DNA of 64,000 nucleotides from assembly GCA_013289585.1 (NCBI GenBank), contig JABCZR010000016.1, positions 1 to 64,000 on the forward strand. The letters are read 5' to 3'. Below, piece by piece: positions 51,435 through 62,607 of this stretch. The first letter of the stretch is position 1. Every line of letters starts with the position of its first letter. The DNA comes from Acidobacteriota bacterium (GTDB lineage: Bacteria > Acidobacteriota > Terriglobia > Acidiferrales > UBA7541). A program made the position numbers and the translations under genes. The notes beneath the pieces were generated by a model that saw only the letters and a list, made by a program, of their open reading frames with translations, made no database searches and was not told the DNA's origin.

Positions 51435-51593
51435 GATCAAGCCATTTCCCCCGGGTAAGTATTTGTATCGCTTGCTTCCTGCTGCTGACCATCCGGTCAG
51501 GTTCCTGGAGCGAACGAGCCTGTACCATTTCTTCGTTGCGCTGTTACATAGTAGCGACCTATTGTGTTTGCGTAGTAGTCCTGCGTACTGACA

Positions 51594-52457
51594 ATGGAAT
51601 CATTAACAGGCCTTCGCGGCAGCAAACCCCGTCCCTCGCCTCTCGAGGGATCCGGGATGTTCCGCGCACAGCTGGCGGAAACCAGCCTGCGGGAGCTGGG
51701 GCGGAGCGAGTGGTGGCTTTGGTTCTCCACGCTTTGTGTGACCACCCTCTCGGCGACGGCCTTTCTGCTAACTTCCATTCCTTCTTTCTTCAAGCACAGC
51801 GAACATTTTTACGAACTACGATCTGACCAGGCGCGTTGGGCAATCCTCTGCCTGCTTCTATTATTTAATGGCTGGCTGCTTTACCGCGAGATGACCATTC
51901 GGCGGCAACGGAGGCATCTCACGGGGCAGAGCGATGACGCAACCGCACAAACCGGGCTGATCTTGGACCCGTCGGGGATCGATCCCGGCACAGGGCTGTA
52001 TACGCGTGGCTTCGTCGAGCAGCAGCTGGGCAGAGAAATAGCCCGAGCGCGGCGGCAAAACAGCATGCTGAGTCTCGCTACGGTTCATATCGAAGAATTT
52101 GCTGAAGTCAGCAAGCGATATGGTGCATCGGCAATGGATCTGGCTTTGAAGGAGCTTGCCCGGCGCTTGAAGCGGGCTTGCCGGGGTTCCGATTTCGCGG
52201 CGCGTCTGGCCAGCGATGATTTCCTGCTGCTGCTTCCGGAATGCGGACTTGGAGAGGTTAAGTTGGTCTTGAACCGGCTTGGTTCGCTGGAAATGAATTG
52301 CGGCGGAAGGAAGATCAATCTGGAATACACCACAGGATGGGTAGACTACCAGGCCGGCGACCTGCCCGCGGACCTGCTGAAGCGCGCGGCACAGATCCTT
52401 CATCTCTACGAGAATGCCGCCAAAGAGAGCGTTTCCGCGACACGCCTGCCCCACTAG
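51594..52457 (+). CDS. Membrane protein with degenerate GGDEF domain
   Basis: A 287-residue protein with two transmembrane helices (about residues 42-62 and 82-98) and a C-terminal GGDEF-type domain (about 125-285, starting DPGTGLYTRGFVEQQLGREI). The active-site signature is replaced by A206-S-D-D-F210, and the upstream metal aspartate by H165, so diguanylate cyclase activity is unlikely. The allosteric I-site RxxD is kept as R197-G-S-D200, exactly five residues before the signature. This fits a cyclic-di-GMP receptor rather than a synthase. Start ATG 51594; ATG 51657 is an alternative. It lies just upstream of the rimP-nusA operon promoter. Confidence 0.85.
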   Translation: MESLTGLRGSKPRPSPLEGSGMFRAQLAETSLRELGRSEWWLWFSTLCVTTLSATAFLLTSIPSFFKHSEHFYELRSDQARWAILCLLLLFNGWLLYREMTIRRQRRHLTGQSDDATAQTGLILDPSGIDPGTGLYTRGFVEQQLGREIARARRQNSMLSLATVHIEEFAEVSKRYGASAMDLALKELARRLKRACRGSDFAARLASDDFLLLLPECGLGEVKLVLNRLGSLEMNCGGRKINLEYTTGWVDYQAGDLPADLLKRAAQILHLYENAAKESVSATRLPH

Positions 52458-52502
52458 GTAATTCTTCCGGCCTTAGGCTGCGGGCCTAAGAGGCCCCGTA
52501 TC

Positions 52503-52531
52503 TTGCTTTTACCGTGCAGCCGGAATATACT
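52503..52531 (+). promoter_or_regulatory. Promoter of the rimP-nusA-infB operon
   Basis: TTGCTT (52503-52508), a 17-bp spacer and TATACT (52526-52531) lie about 107 bp before rimP. The -10 is 5 of 6 to consensus. It sits upstream of the leader terminator described next, so transcripts must pass that terminator to reach rimP. Confidence 0.7.
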
Positions 52532-52564
52532 CTTGTTTCGCTCTGAAGCGGGTCGAACGAATGG

Positions 52565-52586
52565 GTGGGCGCAAGCCCACTTTTTT
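52565..52586 (+). terminator. Leader terminator (attenuator) ahead of rimP-nusA-infB
   Basis: A 6-bp stem GTGGGC/GCCCAC (52565-52570/52575-52580) closed by a GCAA tetraloop is followed directly by six T (52581-52586). It lies about 34 bp after the -10 box and 51 bp before the rimP start, within the transcribed leader. It looks like a compact intrinsic terminator that would attenuate the operon encoding the termination factor NusA. Confidence 0.8.
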
Positions 52587-52637
52587 GTTGGCCGGTTGGA
52601 GTGCACTGCGGACCGGCTAAGGTCGGGGAGTCTCTAC

Positions 52638-53135
52638 GTGGATTTGGCAAAAGTCCGCGACGCTGCCGAACGGGTGGCGCGTTCGGCAGGCCTGGAGATC
52701 GTTGACGTCGAATGGAAAATCGGCAAGCAGCGGTTCTTGCGTGTGTACATCGATAAGCTTCCAGACGGCTCCGATGGGTCCGAGGTGAACGATCCATATC
52801 CAAAGATCAGCCACGCGGATTGCCAGCGAGTCAGCCAGCAGTTGAGCGTGATTCTGGACGTTGAGGATTTGATCCCAGGTCCGGCTTATGTCCTGGAAGT
52901 CAGTTCGCCGGGGATGGACCGGGAGCTGAGGAAACCGGCGGAGTTCGAGCGATTCAAGGGCCGGTTGGCGAAAATCTCCACCACGGAGCCGGTGGGCGAC
53001 GCCAAGTTTTTTGAAGGGCGCCTGGCAGGATTTGCGGATGGGAAAGTCCGCATGGAGTTGAAGGGCAAGGAACCGCGGACGATCGAGCTGCCGCTCGAGA
53101 CAATCCGCAAGGCGAATCTGGTCGTGGAGTTTTAG
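52638..53135 (+). CDS. rimP: Ribosome maturation factor RimP
   Basis: A 165-residue protein that helps assemble the 30S subunit. It starts at GTG 52638 with GGGGAG at good spacing. The N-terminal half has AGLEIVDVEWKIGKQRFLRVYIDK and the conserved ISHADCQRVSQQLSVILDVED (the DxED-type turn). The C-terminal SH3-like half has YVLEVSSPGMDRELRKPAEFERF. Its place at the head of nusA-infB is the usual one. Confidence 0.94.
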   Translation: MDLAKVRDAAERVARSAGLEIVDVEWKIGKQRFLRVYIDKLPDGSDGSEVNDPYPKISHADCQRVSQQLSVILDVEDLIPGPAYVLEVSSPGMDRELRKPAEFERFKGRLAKISTTEPVGDAKFFEGRLAGFADGKVRMELKGKEPRTIELPLETIRKANLVVEF

Positions 53136-53172
53136 CGGCCGGGAGTTCGAGGAAGACATCTAGGAACGCGAT

Positions 53173-54678
53173 ATGGCGAATTTGCTCTACCAACAGATCG
53201 AAATGCTGAGCCGCGAGAAGCACATCGAGCCGGAAGTCGTGGTGTCGGCGATCGAGGACGCCATGGTGGTGGCGGCGCGGAAGTATTACAAGACGGAAGA
53301 GGATTTGCGCGCGAAGTTCAACCAGGAAACCGGCCAGGTGGACGTGTTTTCGGTGCACATGGTCGTTGAGGAAGTGACCGACCCGAAAAAAGAGATCAGC
53401 CTGGCGGATGCCAAGAAAAAGAATCCCGCTGCGGAAGTTGGCTCAGAGATTGTGGCAGCGAAGCCCACGGATGTGCTGGGCCGCATCGCGGCGCAGACGG
53501 CGAAGCAGGTAATCCTGCAAAAAGTACGCGAAGCCGAGCGCGACACGATTTTCAACGAGTATCACACCCGCGTGGGCGAGCTGGTGACGGTAATCGTAAA
53601 ACGCGCCGAAGGGCCGGATCTGATCGTGGACATGGGTCGCACGGAAGCTCGGCTGCCGAAACGCGAACAATCGAAACTAGAAACTTACAACATCGGCGAA
53701 CGCCTGCGCGTGGTCATCAAGATGGTGGATCGCGCGGCGAAGGGGCCGCAAGTGATCGTATCGCGCGCGGATGCCAGCCTGGTGCAGCGCTTGTTCGAGA
53801 TGGAAGTGCCGGAAATTTATGACGGCACGGTGCAGATTCGTTTTGCGGCGCGCGAGGCCGGCGAGCGCACGAAAGTAGCCGTGGCGAGCCGGGACAAGGA
53901 CGTCGATCCTGTTGGTGCGTGCGTGGGCATGAAGGGCATGCGCGTGCAGTCCATCATCCGCGAATTGCGTGGCGAGAAAATCGACATTATCCCCTACAGC
54001 GAAGAGACCGTTGCGTTTGCGCAGAAGGCCCTGAGTCCGGCGAAGGTGACACGGGTACAAATCACCGATCCCGAGAACAAGAAGCTGGAAGTGATCGTGG
54101 AAGACTCACAGCTTTCACTGGCCATTGGCAAGAAAGGGCAAAACGTTCGCCTGGCGAGCAAGCTCATCGGCTGGGACATCGACATCAAGAGCGAAGAAGA
54201 AAAGCGCCAGGAAATCGAAGAACAGATGACCGCGCTGACCGCTCCCGTGACACCGCTCACGTCTCTTGCGGGCGTGGGCGCGAAGACGATTGAGAAAATT
54301 GAAGCGGCGGGCATCAACTCCGTCGAAAAACTCGCGGGAATGACGCCCGAACAGTTGATGGAGATTCCGGGCATCGGCGAAAAGATGGTGGACAAGATCT
54401 ATCAGGCGGTGAACCGCTTCTATGAAGGTGGCACCGAGGCCGCCGCAGCTGCCGAGGCTGCCCCAAGTGCGGAAGTTCCCGCCGAAGAAGGCGAAGCCGC
54501 AACTTCGGAGGCAGCAGAGACCCTCGAGAATTCTGAAGTGGCGGAAGCGAGCGAACCCTCAGAATCGGCGGTAGAAACTCCGGCACCGGAAGAGAACGCG
54601 GCAACGGAACAAAATGCGACAGAGTCCGCACCCGCTGGCAATGATGATGAAGAGAAGGCAGAAGAGGCAAAGTCTTAA
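53173..54678 (+). CDS. nusA: Transcription termination/antitermination protein NusA
   Basis: A 501-residue protein with an N-terminal RNA-polymerase-binding domain (about residues 1-130), S1 domain (about 140-205), KH1 and KH2 (about 215-355, motifs GACVGMKGMRVQSI and LAIGKKGQNVRLAS), and a helix-hairpin-helix region (LAGVGAKTIEKIEAAGI, ...IPGIGEKMVDKI). The last ~85 residues form an acidic, alanine/glutamate-rich tail that replaces the acidic repeats of E. coli. NusA promotes pausing and hairpin folding. The terminator in this operon leader suggests autoregulation. infB follows after 8 bp. Confidence 0.96.
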   Translation: MANLLYQQIEMLSREKHIEPEVVVSAIEDAMVVAARKYYKTEEDLRAKFNQETGQVDVFSVHMVVEEVTDPKKEISLADAKKKNPAAEVGSEIVAAKPTDVLGRIAAQTAKQVILQKVREAERDTIFNEYHTRVGELVTVIVKRAEGPDLIVDMGRTEARLPKREQSKLETYNIGERLRVVIKMVDRAAKGPQVIVSRADASLVQRLFEMEVPEIYDGTVQIRFAAREAGERTKVAVASRDKDVDPVGACVGMKGMRVQSIIRELRGEKIDIIPYSEETVAFAQKALSPAKVTRVQITDPENKKLEVIVEDSQLSLAIGKKGQNVRLASKLIGWDIDIKSEEEKRQEIEEQMTALTAPVTPLTSLAGVGAKTIEKIEAAGINSVEKLAGMTPEQLMEIPGIGEKMVDKIYQAVNRFYEGGTEAAAAAEAAPSAEVPAEEGEAATSEAAETLENSEVAEASEPSESAVETPAPEENAATEQNATESAPAGNDDEEKAEEAKS

Positions 54679-54686
54679 AAGGAAGC

Positions 54687-57560
54687 ATGACAGACGCAAA
54701 CCAAGTCCGAATCAACGAGCTGGCCCGCGAACTCGAGGTCAAGGCCAAAGCGATTATTGACCTTTTGCCGGGGTACGGCGTCACCGAAAAGAAGACGCAT
54801 TCGAGCTCGATTCCCGTAGATGTCGCGGAAAAGGTTCGTAAGAATCTACTGGGCCAAGCGGAGGCCGAAGCCCAAGCGGAAGCGACCGCAAGGGCGGACA
54901 AAGAAGCCAAGGATGCGGCCGCCAAGGCTGCGAGGATGAGGCCTGCCGCGCCGCCTGCTCCAGCGCCGGTTAGCGTCATGCCCGCTGCGGCTAAGCCCGT
55001 TCCACCCCCAGCTCCAGTTGCTAAGCCAGTGGCACCATCAGCGACAATCCCGGTCGCGGCACCCGCCGCGCCTGCGGCAGCACCGGCTCCTGCCGCTGCA
55101 ACACCGGCGGCCGCGTCACCCACGGTAAGACCTGCGGCTCCGGCACCAACAGTCATTCGGCCTTCAGCGGCCGCTGGACAGCCAGTGGCACCCGCGGCGG
55201 CGCGGCCCGCCGCTCCGTCAGCCACTGCGCGGCCTACAGCCCCTCGTCCTGCGGCTGCTTCTCCTGGCGCGGCTCCGGCTCGTCCTGGCGCACGTCCAGC
55301 TACCGCACCCTCGCGATCAATGCCCACAGGCAATCGCGGCCCGCTCCCAACCGGAAATCGTGGACCAGTGCCTGGCACGACGCCAGGTTCGCGCTCGGGC
55401 GGCCCGCGTCCCGGCCAGCCCATGCGCCCGCAACAACCCGGTCAAGGAAGGCCATACACCCCGCGTCCCAGTGGCCCGGGCGGGGCTCCAAGCCGCCCTT
55501 TTGAGCAACGCCGTGGACCCATGCCGACTGGCACCCGTCCCGGACCGCGTGCTCCAGGTCGCCCGGGAATGTTGCCGCCGTTTCCTGAGAAGATGCCTCC
55601 GAAGGCGGAGCCAGGCAAACCGCTTTACACGCGCAAGCCTACTCAGCGGCAACGCCCAGTGGCAGACAAGCGCGAGCAGGAGGGTGAGCGCAAGCTGCAC
55701 CCCACCCGTCAGCGTCCCGGTGCGGGTCGCGGGGTAGCCGCCGTCATCGCGCCCCCGGAACCGCGTGCGCCGCGCGACGTCACCATCACCGAGGGAATTA
55801 CCATTCGCGAGCTGGCGGAAAAACTGGATGTGCGCGCCAAGGAACTCTTGAAGAACTTGCTCGATCGAGGCGTTTTCGCCAGCATCAACCAGGCACTCGA
55901 CGTGCCCACAGCCACGACACTTGCGGAAGCATTTAGCGGCGTTGTCAGCGTGGTCTCCCTCGAAGAGGAGATGGTGCTGGAAGTTGCCAAGGAAGAGACC
56001 AAGGAGAGTTTGAAGCCGCGGCCACCCGTAGTGACTGTTATGGGGCACGTTGACCATGGGAAGACGAGCCTGCTCGACGCTATCCGCGAGGCGGATGTGG
56101 CCGGCGGCGAGGCGGGCGGCATTACGCAGCATATCGGCGCCTACAAAGTTGTGGTGAACGATCGAAGCGTGGTGTTCGTCGATACGCCAGGCCATGAAGC
56201 ATTTACGCGTATGCGTGCCCGTGGGGCCAAAGTCACGGACATCGTTGTTCTCGTAGTAGCGGCTGACGACGGCGTCATGCCACAAACGAAAGAGGCGATC
56301 GACCACGCCAAAGCCGCAAAGGTTCCCATCATCGTGGCGATTAACAAAATCGACAAACCCGAAGCGCAAATCGAGCGCGTCAAGCGCCAGCTTGCCGATG
56401 TCGGACTAATGTCCGCTGATTGGGGTGGCGACACGGAATTCGTCGAGGTATCCGCGAAGCAAAAGAAGGGCATTGATAAGCTGCTCGAAACGATTTTGCT
56501 GGTGGCTGATTTACGCGAGCTGCGAGCCAATCCTGATGCTCCAGCGACTGGAACAGTTCTCGAATCGCGCGTGGACAAGGGTCGCGGCCCGGTGGCCACG
56601 ATCCTGGTGCAAAACGGTACGCTCAACGCCGGCGACTTTTTCATCTGCGGCTCGGTATTCGGCAAAGTTCGCGCGATGTTTGACGATCGTGGCCGGGTCG
56701 TGAAGGATGCGCCCCCGTCCACACCTGTCGAAGTGCTCGGATTGCAGGGAGTGCCCGATGCGGGCGACCTCTTCCAGGTGACTGACGAGGCCAAGGCGCG
56801 GCACATCGTGGAGTACCGCCAGGGCAAGCAACGCGACGCCGCGATGGCGCGCATCAGCGGCTCACGCATCACGCTCGATCAGCTGCACGAGCAACTCAAG
56901 GCCGGCGACGTCAAGGAATTGGGAATCGTGATCAAGGGCGACGTACAAGGCTCTGTCGAAGTGCTCAGCGAGATGCTGCCCAAGCTTTCCACCGACCAGG
57001 TGAAACTGAAAATCATCGGGTCTGGTGTCGGCGCGGTGACGGAAAACGACGTACTGCTCGCCTCCGCATCCGGCGCGATTGTGATCGCGTTTGGCGTCCG
57101 GCCGGACCGTAAGGCCCTGGACCTGGCGCAGCAGGAGCATGTAGACATCCGCACGCACACGATTATCTACGAAGTCTCCGACGAGTTGAAAAAAGCCATG
57201 GAAGGCTTACTGGAACCTGTTGTCACGGAGACGTATCTGGGCCGCGCGGAAGTGCGCAACACGTTCCGCGTCAAGGGCGCTGGCACGATTGCGGGCTGCT
57301 ACGTGGTCGATGGCATCCTGAAACGCGACGCGCAAGTCCGCGTGCTCCGCGAGGGTGCTGTGATTTACACGTCCAAACTTAGCTCGCTGAAGCGCTTCAA
57401 GGATGATGCCAGCGAGGTACGTACCGGATTCGAATGTGGCGCCGGCGTGGCCAATTTCAATGACATCAAAGTCGGCGACATTCTCGAATGCTTCAGCGTC
57501 ACGAAGATCAGTGCCGCCGAAGCTGCCGGTCAGGGCGGCGGGTCCTCCGGCAAGAAATAG
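54687..57560 (+). CDS. infB: Translation initiation factor IF-2
   Basis: A 957-residue IF-2. A short N-terminal helix domain (about residues 5-50) is followed by a very long alanine/proline- then glycine/arginine/proline-rich linker (about 60-350). The conserved part starts near residue 365 ([18 protein letters not shown]) and includes the G1 [13 protein letters not shown]3 DTPGHEAF and G4 NKIDK motifs. Domains II to IV, which bind fMet-tRNA, follow. It is co-transcribed with nusA (8-bp gap; AGGAAG before ATG 54687). No ylxR- or L7Ae-type gene lies between them, unlike in Firmicutes. Confidence 0.96.
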
Positions 57561-59505: not shown

Positions 59506-62500
59506 TCAAGACGGAGGCTGGCCGCCGGGGGCCGGTGGAGGTTGTCCTCCGGGAGCTGGGGGAGGCTGTCCACCGGGTGCGGGCGGAGGCGGTGCGGTGG
59601 GTGTTGGCTGAGCTCCAGGGCCAATGCTTCCGCGGCCACCGGGGTCGCCATGGCCGGCGAAAATCGTCCTGGTGAGATGATCCGGGATCCGCACCTTTCG
59701 CGGCGTGACCATGATCAGCAGCTCGGTGTCCTGCAACGAATTGCTTTTCGTCCCGAAGGCGTAACCAATCCCTGGGATCTCCGCAAATCCCGGCAATCCG
59801 GCAATCGATCGGGTTTCTTCCACATCCGTGATTCCGCCGATTAGCGTCGGTTCGTCTTCTTTTACGCGCACCGTTTGCGTCAGGGTGCGGTTGGAAATAA
59901 TGGGGATCCCATTCACGTTACTCCCTGAGAGGGCGCGGATTTCAAATTCGAGTTGCAGCGTTACTTCATTGTTGGGATGCAAGGCCGGCGTAGCTTTTAT
60001 TTTTACCCCCAGGTCCACGTATTCCGAACCTGGATAGGGCTGTTGGGCCAGCCCCGAAGTCGAAAAGAGATTCGCCGGACTCAGGACCACGGTGACGTCT
60101 CCTGCGGCGCCGGGCACATTGTTGGTCATAACTACATCCGGAAATTCGCCACTGACCAGCGATGGCGCTATGATCGCGGTGGGAAAGGATCCGGCAGGCC
60201 CAGCAGGTGGCTCGAATGCCACGGTGAAGAAGCCGGCAGTGATGCCGACAAAGACTCGAAATGTGTTTGACCCTGCACAAGTGACGGCGATACCCGCTGT
60301 GCCGTTCTGCGTGAAGTCCGCGAGAGCAATTCCTGTGGGATTCGGCGAAGTGGCGAGAGGCGAATTCGGGCCAGCAACAAAAGTACCATCCCCTTGATTC
60401 AACAGAACAGTGACCGAATTATCCGTATTGTTCACGATCGCGAGGTCCGGGCTGGCGTTGCCATCCAAGTCTGCCGAGGCGACCGCGACGGGATTCTGCC
60501 CCAGCGTGATCGGCGAGCCAGTGAATTGCGTGAAAGTTCCATCTCCGTTGCCCTGAAGTACCACCACGTTGCCTTGCGGGATGGATGGATTAGCAAGCGT
60601 GGTCTGATTAACGATCGCGAGATCGGGTTTGCCATCAAGATTGAAATCGGCGACCGTCATGGCCACTGGTCCGCTGACATTTGTGGGCAGGTGAAAAGGC
60701 GAGCCCGTTGCTGGAGTGAAGGTCGGATTCCCGCTATTGTCCACACCCCCGAGGAAAACGGAGAAAGTGCTGTCCTTGAAATTGGCGACGGCAAAATCCT
60801 GGTGTCCGTCGCCGTTAAAATCCGCGGTGACAATGGCACTTGGCTGATTGCCGACCGGGATAGTTGTCGCGGGGGTCTTAAAGGTCCCGTCCCCATTGCC
60901 AAAAAATATGTTCACGAGGTTTTTTGTGGAATCCGTGACGAGCAGGTCGGGAAAGCCGCTGGAAGTGAAAACCGCTGAAGCGATTGCGGGTGGACTGGGT
61001 GGGGCTGCGGTCAGTTTTGGCCCCAGCGAGATCGGCGAGTTCGTGGCATCCGTAAAAAATCCCGGGTTGCCGTTCTCATTCAGGAGGATGGTCACTGTGT
61101 TATCCAGCTGGTTCACCACTGCCAGATCAATCAAACCATTATTCTGAAAGTCAGCCGCGGCGAGGGATACCGGGTCGACACCCACGGGGAAAGTATTGCT
61201 CGGGAAAGGATTGCCGGAACCCGCCGGATTCGGAGTGAAAGGGGAGCTGCCAAGGCTGCTCGAGAGTAACGAGAGAGTAATCGGGTAACGATCGCCCACA
61301 AAAAAAGTAGCGGGTTTGCCGTCTTGCGCACGCAACAGGACCTGACGGCCGCTGTGCACCAGTGAAAGTGCCGTGGAAAAATCCACCGCCGCGCTGGGCA
61401 GCGTCAGAAGAAATGTCGATTTGCCCCCGCCCACCGCGATAATCTGTGGAATCAGCGAGGCCACCGTTGTTGCGCCCCCTGTTGCGACTCCTCCAAAGAT
61501 CCCCGCGAGCAGCGTTTGAAGCGCCGAAAGATTCTGCGCTTGATTCAACTGGCTGATCAGATTTGGCGGGATGGTGTACAGGTGCACGCTGGTAGGTGGC
61601 TCGATGCCGATTTTGCGTGCAGTGTTGCGGTCGACCTCGAGCAGTTCAATCTCCAGCATGACTTCGCCGCGCGCTTTTTCCGTTTGCCGGATGAGTTCTT
61701 CGGCGACTGCCAGCTTTTCTGGCGAGTCCCGCATGGTAATGGTCCGGCTGCGGCTATCAAGGCTGATGTGGGTTGCGCCGGTGATCTCTCGAAGGATGCG
61801 CAACATCTCGGTTACATCCTCGGGGCTTACCGCGGCAGAGAGAGAAAAAGTCTGCTCAGCTTCCAGACCGTACTGCTTGCGTTTTTCCTGCGTGTCTGCT
61901 GCAACGAACATCAGCGTCGAATTCAGGGGGCGCCAGAATGTGCCAGTTTGCGTGCCCAGGACCGCGGCCGCGGTGTTAAAGTCCACCTGGTCGAGGCGCA
62001 GCCGTACATTTCGCGATGTCAGGTCTGGATCGAAAGCTGCCTTGACGCCGTACAGCGTTGCCAATTGCTCGTAAGCTGATTTCGTATCGCCCCGCAGGTT
62101 GAGATCGTACGTTCCACTTTTCGGCTGAAGCTTTGGCAAGCCGACGATCTCCGTTGCCGCCGTTTTTGTGGGTGGTTCATCCTCCATCGTCTTCATTTGC
62201 CCGAGCCGCTCCATGACGATGGCGTTTCCTGGATCTATTCTCAGCGCCGCAGCCAATGCTTCCGTGGCCTGGTCCAGATGGCCCGCCAAAGCGCTACGTT
62301 CAGCAGCCTCTGTGTACATCCGCACTAGTTTGGAGCGAAGCGCCGCCGCGTGGCCGACGATGCCTGCGTCTTGCGGCGCGTACAGGGCAGCTTCCTGGTA
62401 CGCAGCCAGAGCTTCCTCCCATTGCCCGGCTGCTTCAGCCTTGGCGCCGCGTTCCGCAGCCTTCTGTGAGCGCTTAGCGTCTGGCTTCGTATCTGGGCGC

Positions 62501-62607
62501 GGTGTGGCTGATTGCGGCTGTGAGGTCGGAGGCGCCTGTGCTGGAAGCTGCGCGCAGATCAGCAGTACGGACAAGAGCAGGGAAGCGGATTGGCGGAACT
62601 CGCGCAT
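59506..62607 (-). CDS. Secretin-like outer-membrane protein with inserted seven-repeat FG-GAP/VCBS propeller
   Basis: A 1,033-residue exported protein. A signal peptide (about residues 1-24) leads to a TPR-like helical part (about 46-140), an STN/N0-like domain (about 165-245) and a secretin N1-type domain (about 250-312). The secretin core starts at about 313 (GEVMLEIELLEVDRNTARKIG) and runs to GKPATFFVGDRYPI at 430-443. It resumes at SEYVDLGVKIKATP (861-874) and continues with RTLTQTVRVKEDEPTLIGGI to TELLIMVTPRKVRI. Between them, residues about 445-855 hold seven FG-GAP/VCBS units. Three have full DxNxDGxxD-style calcium loops (near 596, 654, 713). The C-terminus is a PPPAPGGQ repeat tail. 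It may form a channel; its partners are not here. Confidence 0.88.
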   Translation of the reverse strand: MREFRQSASLLLSVLLICAQLPAQAPPTSQPQSATPRPDTKPDAKRSQKAAERGAKAEAAGQWEEALAAYQEAALYAPQDAGIVGHAAALRSKLVRMYTEAAERSALAGHLDQATEALAAALRIDPGNAIVMERLGQMKTMEDEPPTKTAATEIVGLPKLQPKSGTYDLNLRGDTKSAYEQLATLYGVKAAFDPDLTSRNVRLRLDQVDFNTAAAVLGTQTGTFWRPLNSTLMFVAADTQEKRKQYGLEAEQTFSLSAAVSPEDVTEMLRILREITGATHISLDSRSRTITMRDSPEKLAVAEELIRQTEKARGEVMLEIELLEVDRNTARKIGIEPPTSVHLYTIPPNLISQLNQAQNLSALQTLLAGIFGGVATGGATTVASLIPQIIAVGGGKSTFLLTLPSAAVDFSTALSLVHSGRQVLLRAQDGKPATFFVGDRYPITLSLLSSSLGSSPFTPNPAGSGNPFPSNTFPVGVDPVSLAAADFQNNGLIDLAVVNQLDNTVTILLNENGNPGFFTDATNSPISLGPKLTAAPPSPPAIASAVFTSSGFPDLLVTDSTKNLVNIFFGNGDGTFKTPATTIPVGNQPSAIVTADFNGDGHQDFAVANFKDSTFSVFLGGVDNSGNPTFTPATGSPFHLPTNVSGPVAMTVADFNLDGKPDLAIVNQTTLANPSIPQGNVVVLQGNGDGTFTQFTGSPITLGQNPVAVASADLDGNASPDLAIVNNTDNSVTVLLNQGDGTFVAGPNSPLATSPNPTGIALADFTQNGTAGIAVTCAGSNTFRVFVGITAGFFTVAFEPPAGPAGSFPTAIIAPSLVSGEFPDVVMTNNVPGAAGDVTVVLSPANLFSTSGLAQQPYPGSEYVDLGVKIKATPALHPNNEVTLQLEFEIRALSGSNVNGIPIISNRTLTQTVRVKEDEPTLIGGITDVEETRSIAGLPGFAEIPGIGYAFGTKSNSLQDTELLIMVTPRKVRIPDHLTRTIFAGHGDPGGRGSIGPGAQPTPTAPPPPAPGGQPPPAPGGQPPPAPGGQPPS

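Follow-up and report, generated by a model that had tools for sequence, protein, structure and literature searches.

The stretch of DNA analysed here (hereafter, the window) comprises 64,000 nucleotides of an Acidobacteriota genome; among named relatives, 'gp2' Acidobacteria and Acidoferrales MAGs stand nearest to it. It carries the rimP, nusA and infB genes in a row on the plus strand, followed on the same strand by genes for DUF503, RbfA and TruB proteins (Pfam). The features in front of and within this operon are:

52503-52508, + strand: promoter-like -35 box TTGCTT, matching TTGACA at 3/6 positions
52526-52531, + strand: promoter-like -10 box TATACT, matching TATAAT at 5/6 positions, with a 17-bp spacer to TTGCTT
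52539-52555, + strand: leader segment CGCTCTGAAGCGGGTCG, conserved in the genus and overlapping the G[GT]CG[ACG]A-like element of other relatives
52565-52580, + strand: terminator stem-loop, composed of GTGGGC (52565-52570), GCAA (52571-52574) and GCCCAC (52575-52580)
52581-52586, + strand: T-run TTTTTT, directly 3' of the terminator stem
52625-52630 and 52638-52640, + strand: SD-like GGGGAG and the rimP start codon GTG, read from the sequence
52638-53135, + strand: rimP (Pfam RimP_N 9.8e-18, DUF150_C 5e-16)
53173-54678, + strand: nusA, the presumed feedback regulator (Pfam NusA_N 2.9e-35, KH_5, S1)
54687-57560, + strand: infB (Pfam IF-2 4.7e-38 and others)

The promoter has the letters and spacing given in the initial annotation, and the GCAA-capped GC stem with six T, which had been placed within about 35 bp of it, was confirmed, with a gap of 33 nt between TATACT and the hairpin. 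The last T of the run lies 51 nt from the rimP GTG, and the SD and start codon are like those of the window in most relatives of the genus, as judged by eye. Conservation of the segment CGCTCTGAAGCGGGTCG was established by alignment by eye and by an alignment of six sequences, and its single exact copy in the genome is the one at rimP.

Taken alone, the window provides evidence for a leader attenuator that is modestly above chance. A consensus scan of positions 51500-54500 returned five terminator-like sites, against 3.1 +/- 1.7 in shuffled sequences, and the rimP-leader hairpin has the most stem pairs among the five; the same scan made no call at the TTGCTT/TATACT promoter, because its -35 box is weak. 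For the 53-nt leader the folding energy is -23.7 kcal/mol (z -3.4), a value reached by 1 of 200 shuffles. The hairpin itself, at -11.0 kcal/mol, is weaker than the three strongest plus-strand terminators of the window (-21.8 to -24.6 kcal/mol), and the stems of the other terminators in the window are unrelated to GTGGGC/GCCCAC. For the pattern GTGGGCN{3,6}GCCCACTTTT chance predicts about 0.014 copies in a genome of this size with the base composition of the window, and one was found, at rimP.

Conservation in relatives places the predicted hairpin far beyond chance. Within the class, 111 loci with a NusA hit, including the copy of the window, were collected, of which 107 were retained after dropping those with too little upstream sequence (L027, L067, L078 and L081). 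A GGGC-loop-GCCC hairpin precedes rimP in 104 of these 107 nusA-anchored loci, so that conservation in relatives, proposed in the initial annotation as a check, is borne out. By this rule the hairpin is missing from L057, L080 and L096; the last lies at a contig end, and the other two have variant stem-loops with T-runs when inspected by eye. Merging near-identical leaders reduced the 104 to 92. As the anchor rule required GGGC and GCCC, the free evidence in these leaders consists only of the outer two pairs, the loop and the tail. The 5' arm reads GTGGGC in all 92, and the 3' arm reads GCCCAC in 88, GCCCGC in three and GCCCTC in one; the loops, 4 or 5 nt long, comprise 18 different sequences and are of GNRA type in 79 of the 92 leaders. 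A TTG, two bases past the first five tail bases, is present in 81 of the 92. One member of the locus set, L065, is doubtful, with the tail CATTTTCT and a position 1 kb before nusA. Among the nearest 61 genomes, from which G029 and G042 were left out, the hairpin with a T-run was found in 56 of the 59 stretches examined; two of the misses are at contig ends (L096 and L173) and one is real (L174).

Regarding the rest of the phylum, we examined 60 stretches upstream of nusA, taken from one or two members of each of 51 other families. A RimP ORF was recognised by rule in 48 of them and in none of the remaining 12. A motif-blind hairpin finder called a terminator in 39 of the 48 RimP-ORF stretches and none in nine; among the 39 called terminators, 28 have GGGC/GCCC and 36 have TGGG in the 5' arm. 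The loops from GGGC to GCCC span 3 to 8 nt across these families, and in family f15 both members looked at have a CGGCC/GGCCG stem instead. The pattern given above, in which the T-run is a requirement, was also searched in 396 genomes of the phylum and matched in 117 and not in 279; the genomes missed by this search were only partly checked for variant stems. In the class of the window, represented by 47 genomes mostly of one family (f11), 39 have exactly one match, none has two, and eight were missed. Of 30 pattern loci returned, including that of the window, 28 are immediately upstream of rimP and share its strand, the exceptions being L119 and L122. A set of 29 further loci, at least 16 of them from the same class, has the motif in 26 and lacks it in L184, L191 and L201.

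Two observations on this search may be recorded. The match in L119, near position 1500, is not at rimP: this GTGGGC-loop-GCCCAC hairpin, accompanied by A and T runs, stands, by eye, a short distance after a tRNA-like gene; two other members of its family (f31) carry a GTGGGT variant at rimP. In genomes G128, G143, G149, G171, G180, G189, G238 and G307 the two strands match the pattern at one and the same site (AAAAGTGGGC-loop-GCCCACTTTT), where the hairpin could therefore act as a bidirectional terminator.

The promoter is conserved together with the hairpin. In 72 of the 92 class leaders the sequence upstream of the hairpin contains a -35/-10 pair with a score of 8/12 or more, versus 6.5% of letter shuffles; where the -10 box has at least five matches, 17-50 nt separate its end from the hairpin. 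In the other families a -10 box of at least 5/6 was found in 19 of the 39 stretches versus 13% of shuffles. The proposal of an attenuator before rimP-nusA-infB is thus well supported by the conservation of both promoter and terminator in front of rimP.

Other parts of the leader were searched for additional elements and for a switch structure. The element G[GT]CG[ACG]A, a motif defined post hoc after looking at the leaders, occurs 5-22 nt before the hairpin in 65 of the 92 leaders (mean 4.4 and maximum 11 in 200 shuffles). Copies similar to CGCTCTGAAGCGGGTCG elsewhere in the genome, with up to three mismatches, numbered 13 and 8 versus 23 and 20 for the reversed control. A search of the assembly for a 16S gene, meant for comparison with the ribosomal boxA, gave none. 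We rejected a small 5' hairpin (CGCT-CTGA-AGCG, near 52539-52550): by eye its pairing is lost in several relatives while most of its letters are kept, and it was therefore treated as a sequence element. An extended pairing of the segment before the hairpin with the sequence after the T-run, suggested by inspection of the leader fold, was likewise rejected, as own partners paired no better than swapped ones (mean z -0.17, s.e. 0.12); the comparison with shuffled letters gave a slight excess (mean z -0.28, s.e. 0.12). A translational switch around the SD, suggested by eye in the genus from GCCGG, ACCGGC and GGTCGGGG, has no folding support. Between the T-run and the start codon, 30 segments compared with letter shuffles gave z values on either side of zero (-1.4 to +1.3), and their predicted structures vary from one relative to another; the letters of 52587-52637 (among them those three motifs) are conserved in the genus, yet they fold at shuffle level. 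In these two tests, pairing across the T-run and downstream folding versus shuffles, there was no sign of an antiterminator.

Attenuators at this position have been described in other bacteria. In the survey of Naville and Gautheret (2010, PMC2965389), the rimP-leader is presented as the most ubiquitous attenuator of their list, and is described there as a terminator with a GGGc...gCCC stem and a T stretch, located 4-130 nt ahead of the gene start and lacking an antiterminator. The account given for this element names NusA as the best candidate regulator, also considers feedback by RimP, and argues that a protein reads the stem directly. As in that description, the terminator of the window lies in the 5' region of rimP-nusA-infB (by gene order and Pfam), its hairpin is followed by a T stretch, the GGGc/gCCC stem is present in both the window and its relatives, the distance of 51 nt to the start falls within the published range, and the leader has no visible antiterminator. 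The acidobacterial fixed stem differs from the general description of PMC2965389 in being longer (GTGGGC/GCCCAC). Among the open-access papers listed for this topic, as judged by title and abstract opening, we found none on this element in Acidobacteriota.

Closer comparison is possible with three systems. In E. coli, where one locus was compared, the second rimP leader terminator likewise has the form GGGC-loop-GCCC, with T after it, immediately ahead of rimP. Cold-shock antitermination is a feature of this E. coli operon. The gammaproteobacterial Rfam family RF01770 is a 102-position element with two tandem terminators, unlike the single hairpin of the window, and its covariance model gave no match up to E 10 in 52300-52800 (the E. 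coli control scored 102 bits, with a gathering threshold of 47). As reported in PMC6511841, transcripts of the E. coli operon rise in mutants with reduced NusA termination, and the cold induction of the operon is attributed there to promoter activity. In B. subtilis, NusA is autoregulated through NusA-stimulated termination in its leader, according to the review PMC12288461 (citing Mondal et al. 2016), and the window resembles this case, as it is described, in that the 5' leader of the nusA operon contains an intrinsic terminator. For the gbs0413-gbs0418 operon of S. agalactiae, PMC4448216 reports termination mapped by RNA-seq 31 nt after the start in the rimP leader, with a leader RNA that shares its start site with the rimP-nusA operon mRNA, and proposes NusA feedback; here the likeness is in the compact, terminated layout. 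NusA dependence was shown in B. subtilis (PMC12288461) and the S. agalactiae leader was seen by RNA-seq (PMC4448216), whereas the window leader is known, and its NusA dependence predicted, from sequence alone. The second E. coli terminator, the ubiquity reported in 2010 (PMC2965389) and the 31-nt leader of S. agalactiae (PMC4448216) argue against the independence from E. coli that the initial annotation ascribed to the compact layout, and this part of it is not supported. The predicted attenuator is instead a strongly conserved case of an already described kind.

The best explanation is probably that of an acidobacterial rimP-leader attenuator, in which NusA-dependent termination feeds back on its own operon. 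As judged from the -10 box, transcription would start near 52538. Within about 30 nt of the start, RNA polymerase would begin to transcribe the weak 6-bp hairpin GUGGGC/GCCCAC, followed by six U, and some of the complexes may terminate near 52586, with the release of a leader RNA some 49 nt long. Readthrough would allow transcription of rimP-nusA-infB and probably of the following genes as well. Intrinsic termination can be NusA-independent; in the present leader it probably depends on NusA, because the hairpin is short. By precedent, high NusA would be expected to increase termination and lower the expression of its own operon, and low NusA to allow readthrough. A weak terminator about 50 nt from the predicted start, before the gene of a termination factor, fits this scheme, and on this analysis NusA feedback at the window leader is likely.

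The same hairpin could be read in other ways. It might terminate transcripts of the GGDEF gene upstream (51594-52457) at their 3' end and take no part in the control of rimP; it does lie 107 nt beyond the stop codon of this gene on the same strand. Against this, only four of the 107 loci yielded a homologue of the GGDEF protein, a count limited by the 1.5 kb flanks of L084-L113: two are copies of the window, one (L005) is about 1.9 kb further upstream, and one (L065) is a weak match on the other strand, so that among the loci with a homologue it adjoins rimP in none other than that of the window. By a crude ORF call, 40 of 70 loci have their upstream neighbour on the opposite strand, or 26 once 14 unreliable ORFs, reaching within 2 nt of the cut edge, are set aside. 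The conserved promoter also sits between the upstream gene and the hairpin. Since the neighbour varies while the hairpin stays, the hairpin appears to go with rimP, and we judge the terminator of an upstream gene to be very unlikely, within the limit set by those 1.5 kb flanks. A nearly invariant palindrome near a start site could also be a DNA operator, an inverted repeat bound by a dimeric repressor without any RNA hairpin. A rigid dimer site, however, would not accommodate a half-site spacing that ranges, from one family to another, between 3 and 8 nt, and the repeat is followed on the rimP side by a T-run, itself a requirement in the pattern search; an operator is scarcely credible.

More weight belongs to two explanations that keep the terminator and remove NusA from its control. 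A partial terminator of fixed efficiency would hold the operon at constant low expression with no NusA feedback, as would fit the lack of an antiterminator, and sequence alone is silent on regulation. The near-invariance of the stem letters nevertheless exceeds the need of basal termination, given the unrelated stems of the other terminators in the window, and there are precedents for feedback in other bacteria (as described in PMC12288461 and PMC6511841); we consider a fixed terminator unlikely. Alternatively, the attenuator may be under the control of a different factor or condition, such as RimP, NusG or hairpin-melting cold-shock proteins. Feedback by RimP is considered in PMC2965389, and the E. 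coli operon is cold-induced, though through promoter activity according to PMC6511841. No element specific to RimP, NusG or cold-shock proteins was found, and of the candidates that the literature cited here names, NusA is the simplest, which makes control by another factor rather improbable.

Apart from the near-fixed letters of its stem, the NusA-dependent attenuator proposed for this leader is an ordinary finding. Those letters are more nearly fixed than intrinsic termination should need, which suggests that the stem may be recognised directly; NusA on the paused polymerase would be the simplest reader. A tentative extension, to which we give somewhat less than even credence, is that the stem is a sequence-coded signal read by NusA or another factor, forming a one-per-genome channel for the level of NusA that is distinct from ordinary NusA-stimulated termination. 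Its basis is a stem kept near letter for letter in the class and widespread in Acidobacteriota, with the GGGC/GCCC core also present in E. coli. A near-invariant stem set against changing loops makes it possible to test whether NusA recognises a particular terminator stem.

Elsewhere in the window, the minus strand at 59506-62607 encodes a secretin-type protein with Secretin_N at residues 261-313 and Secretin at 856-970; FG-GAP repeats (best stretch 549-607) sit between both secretin parts.
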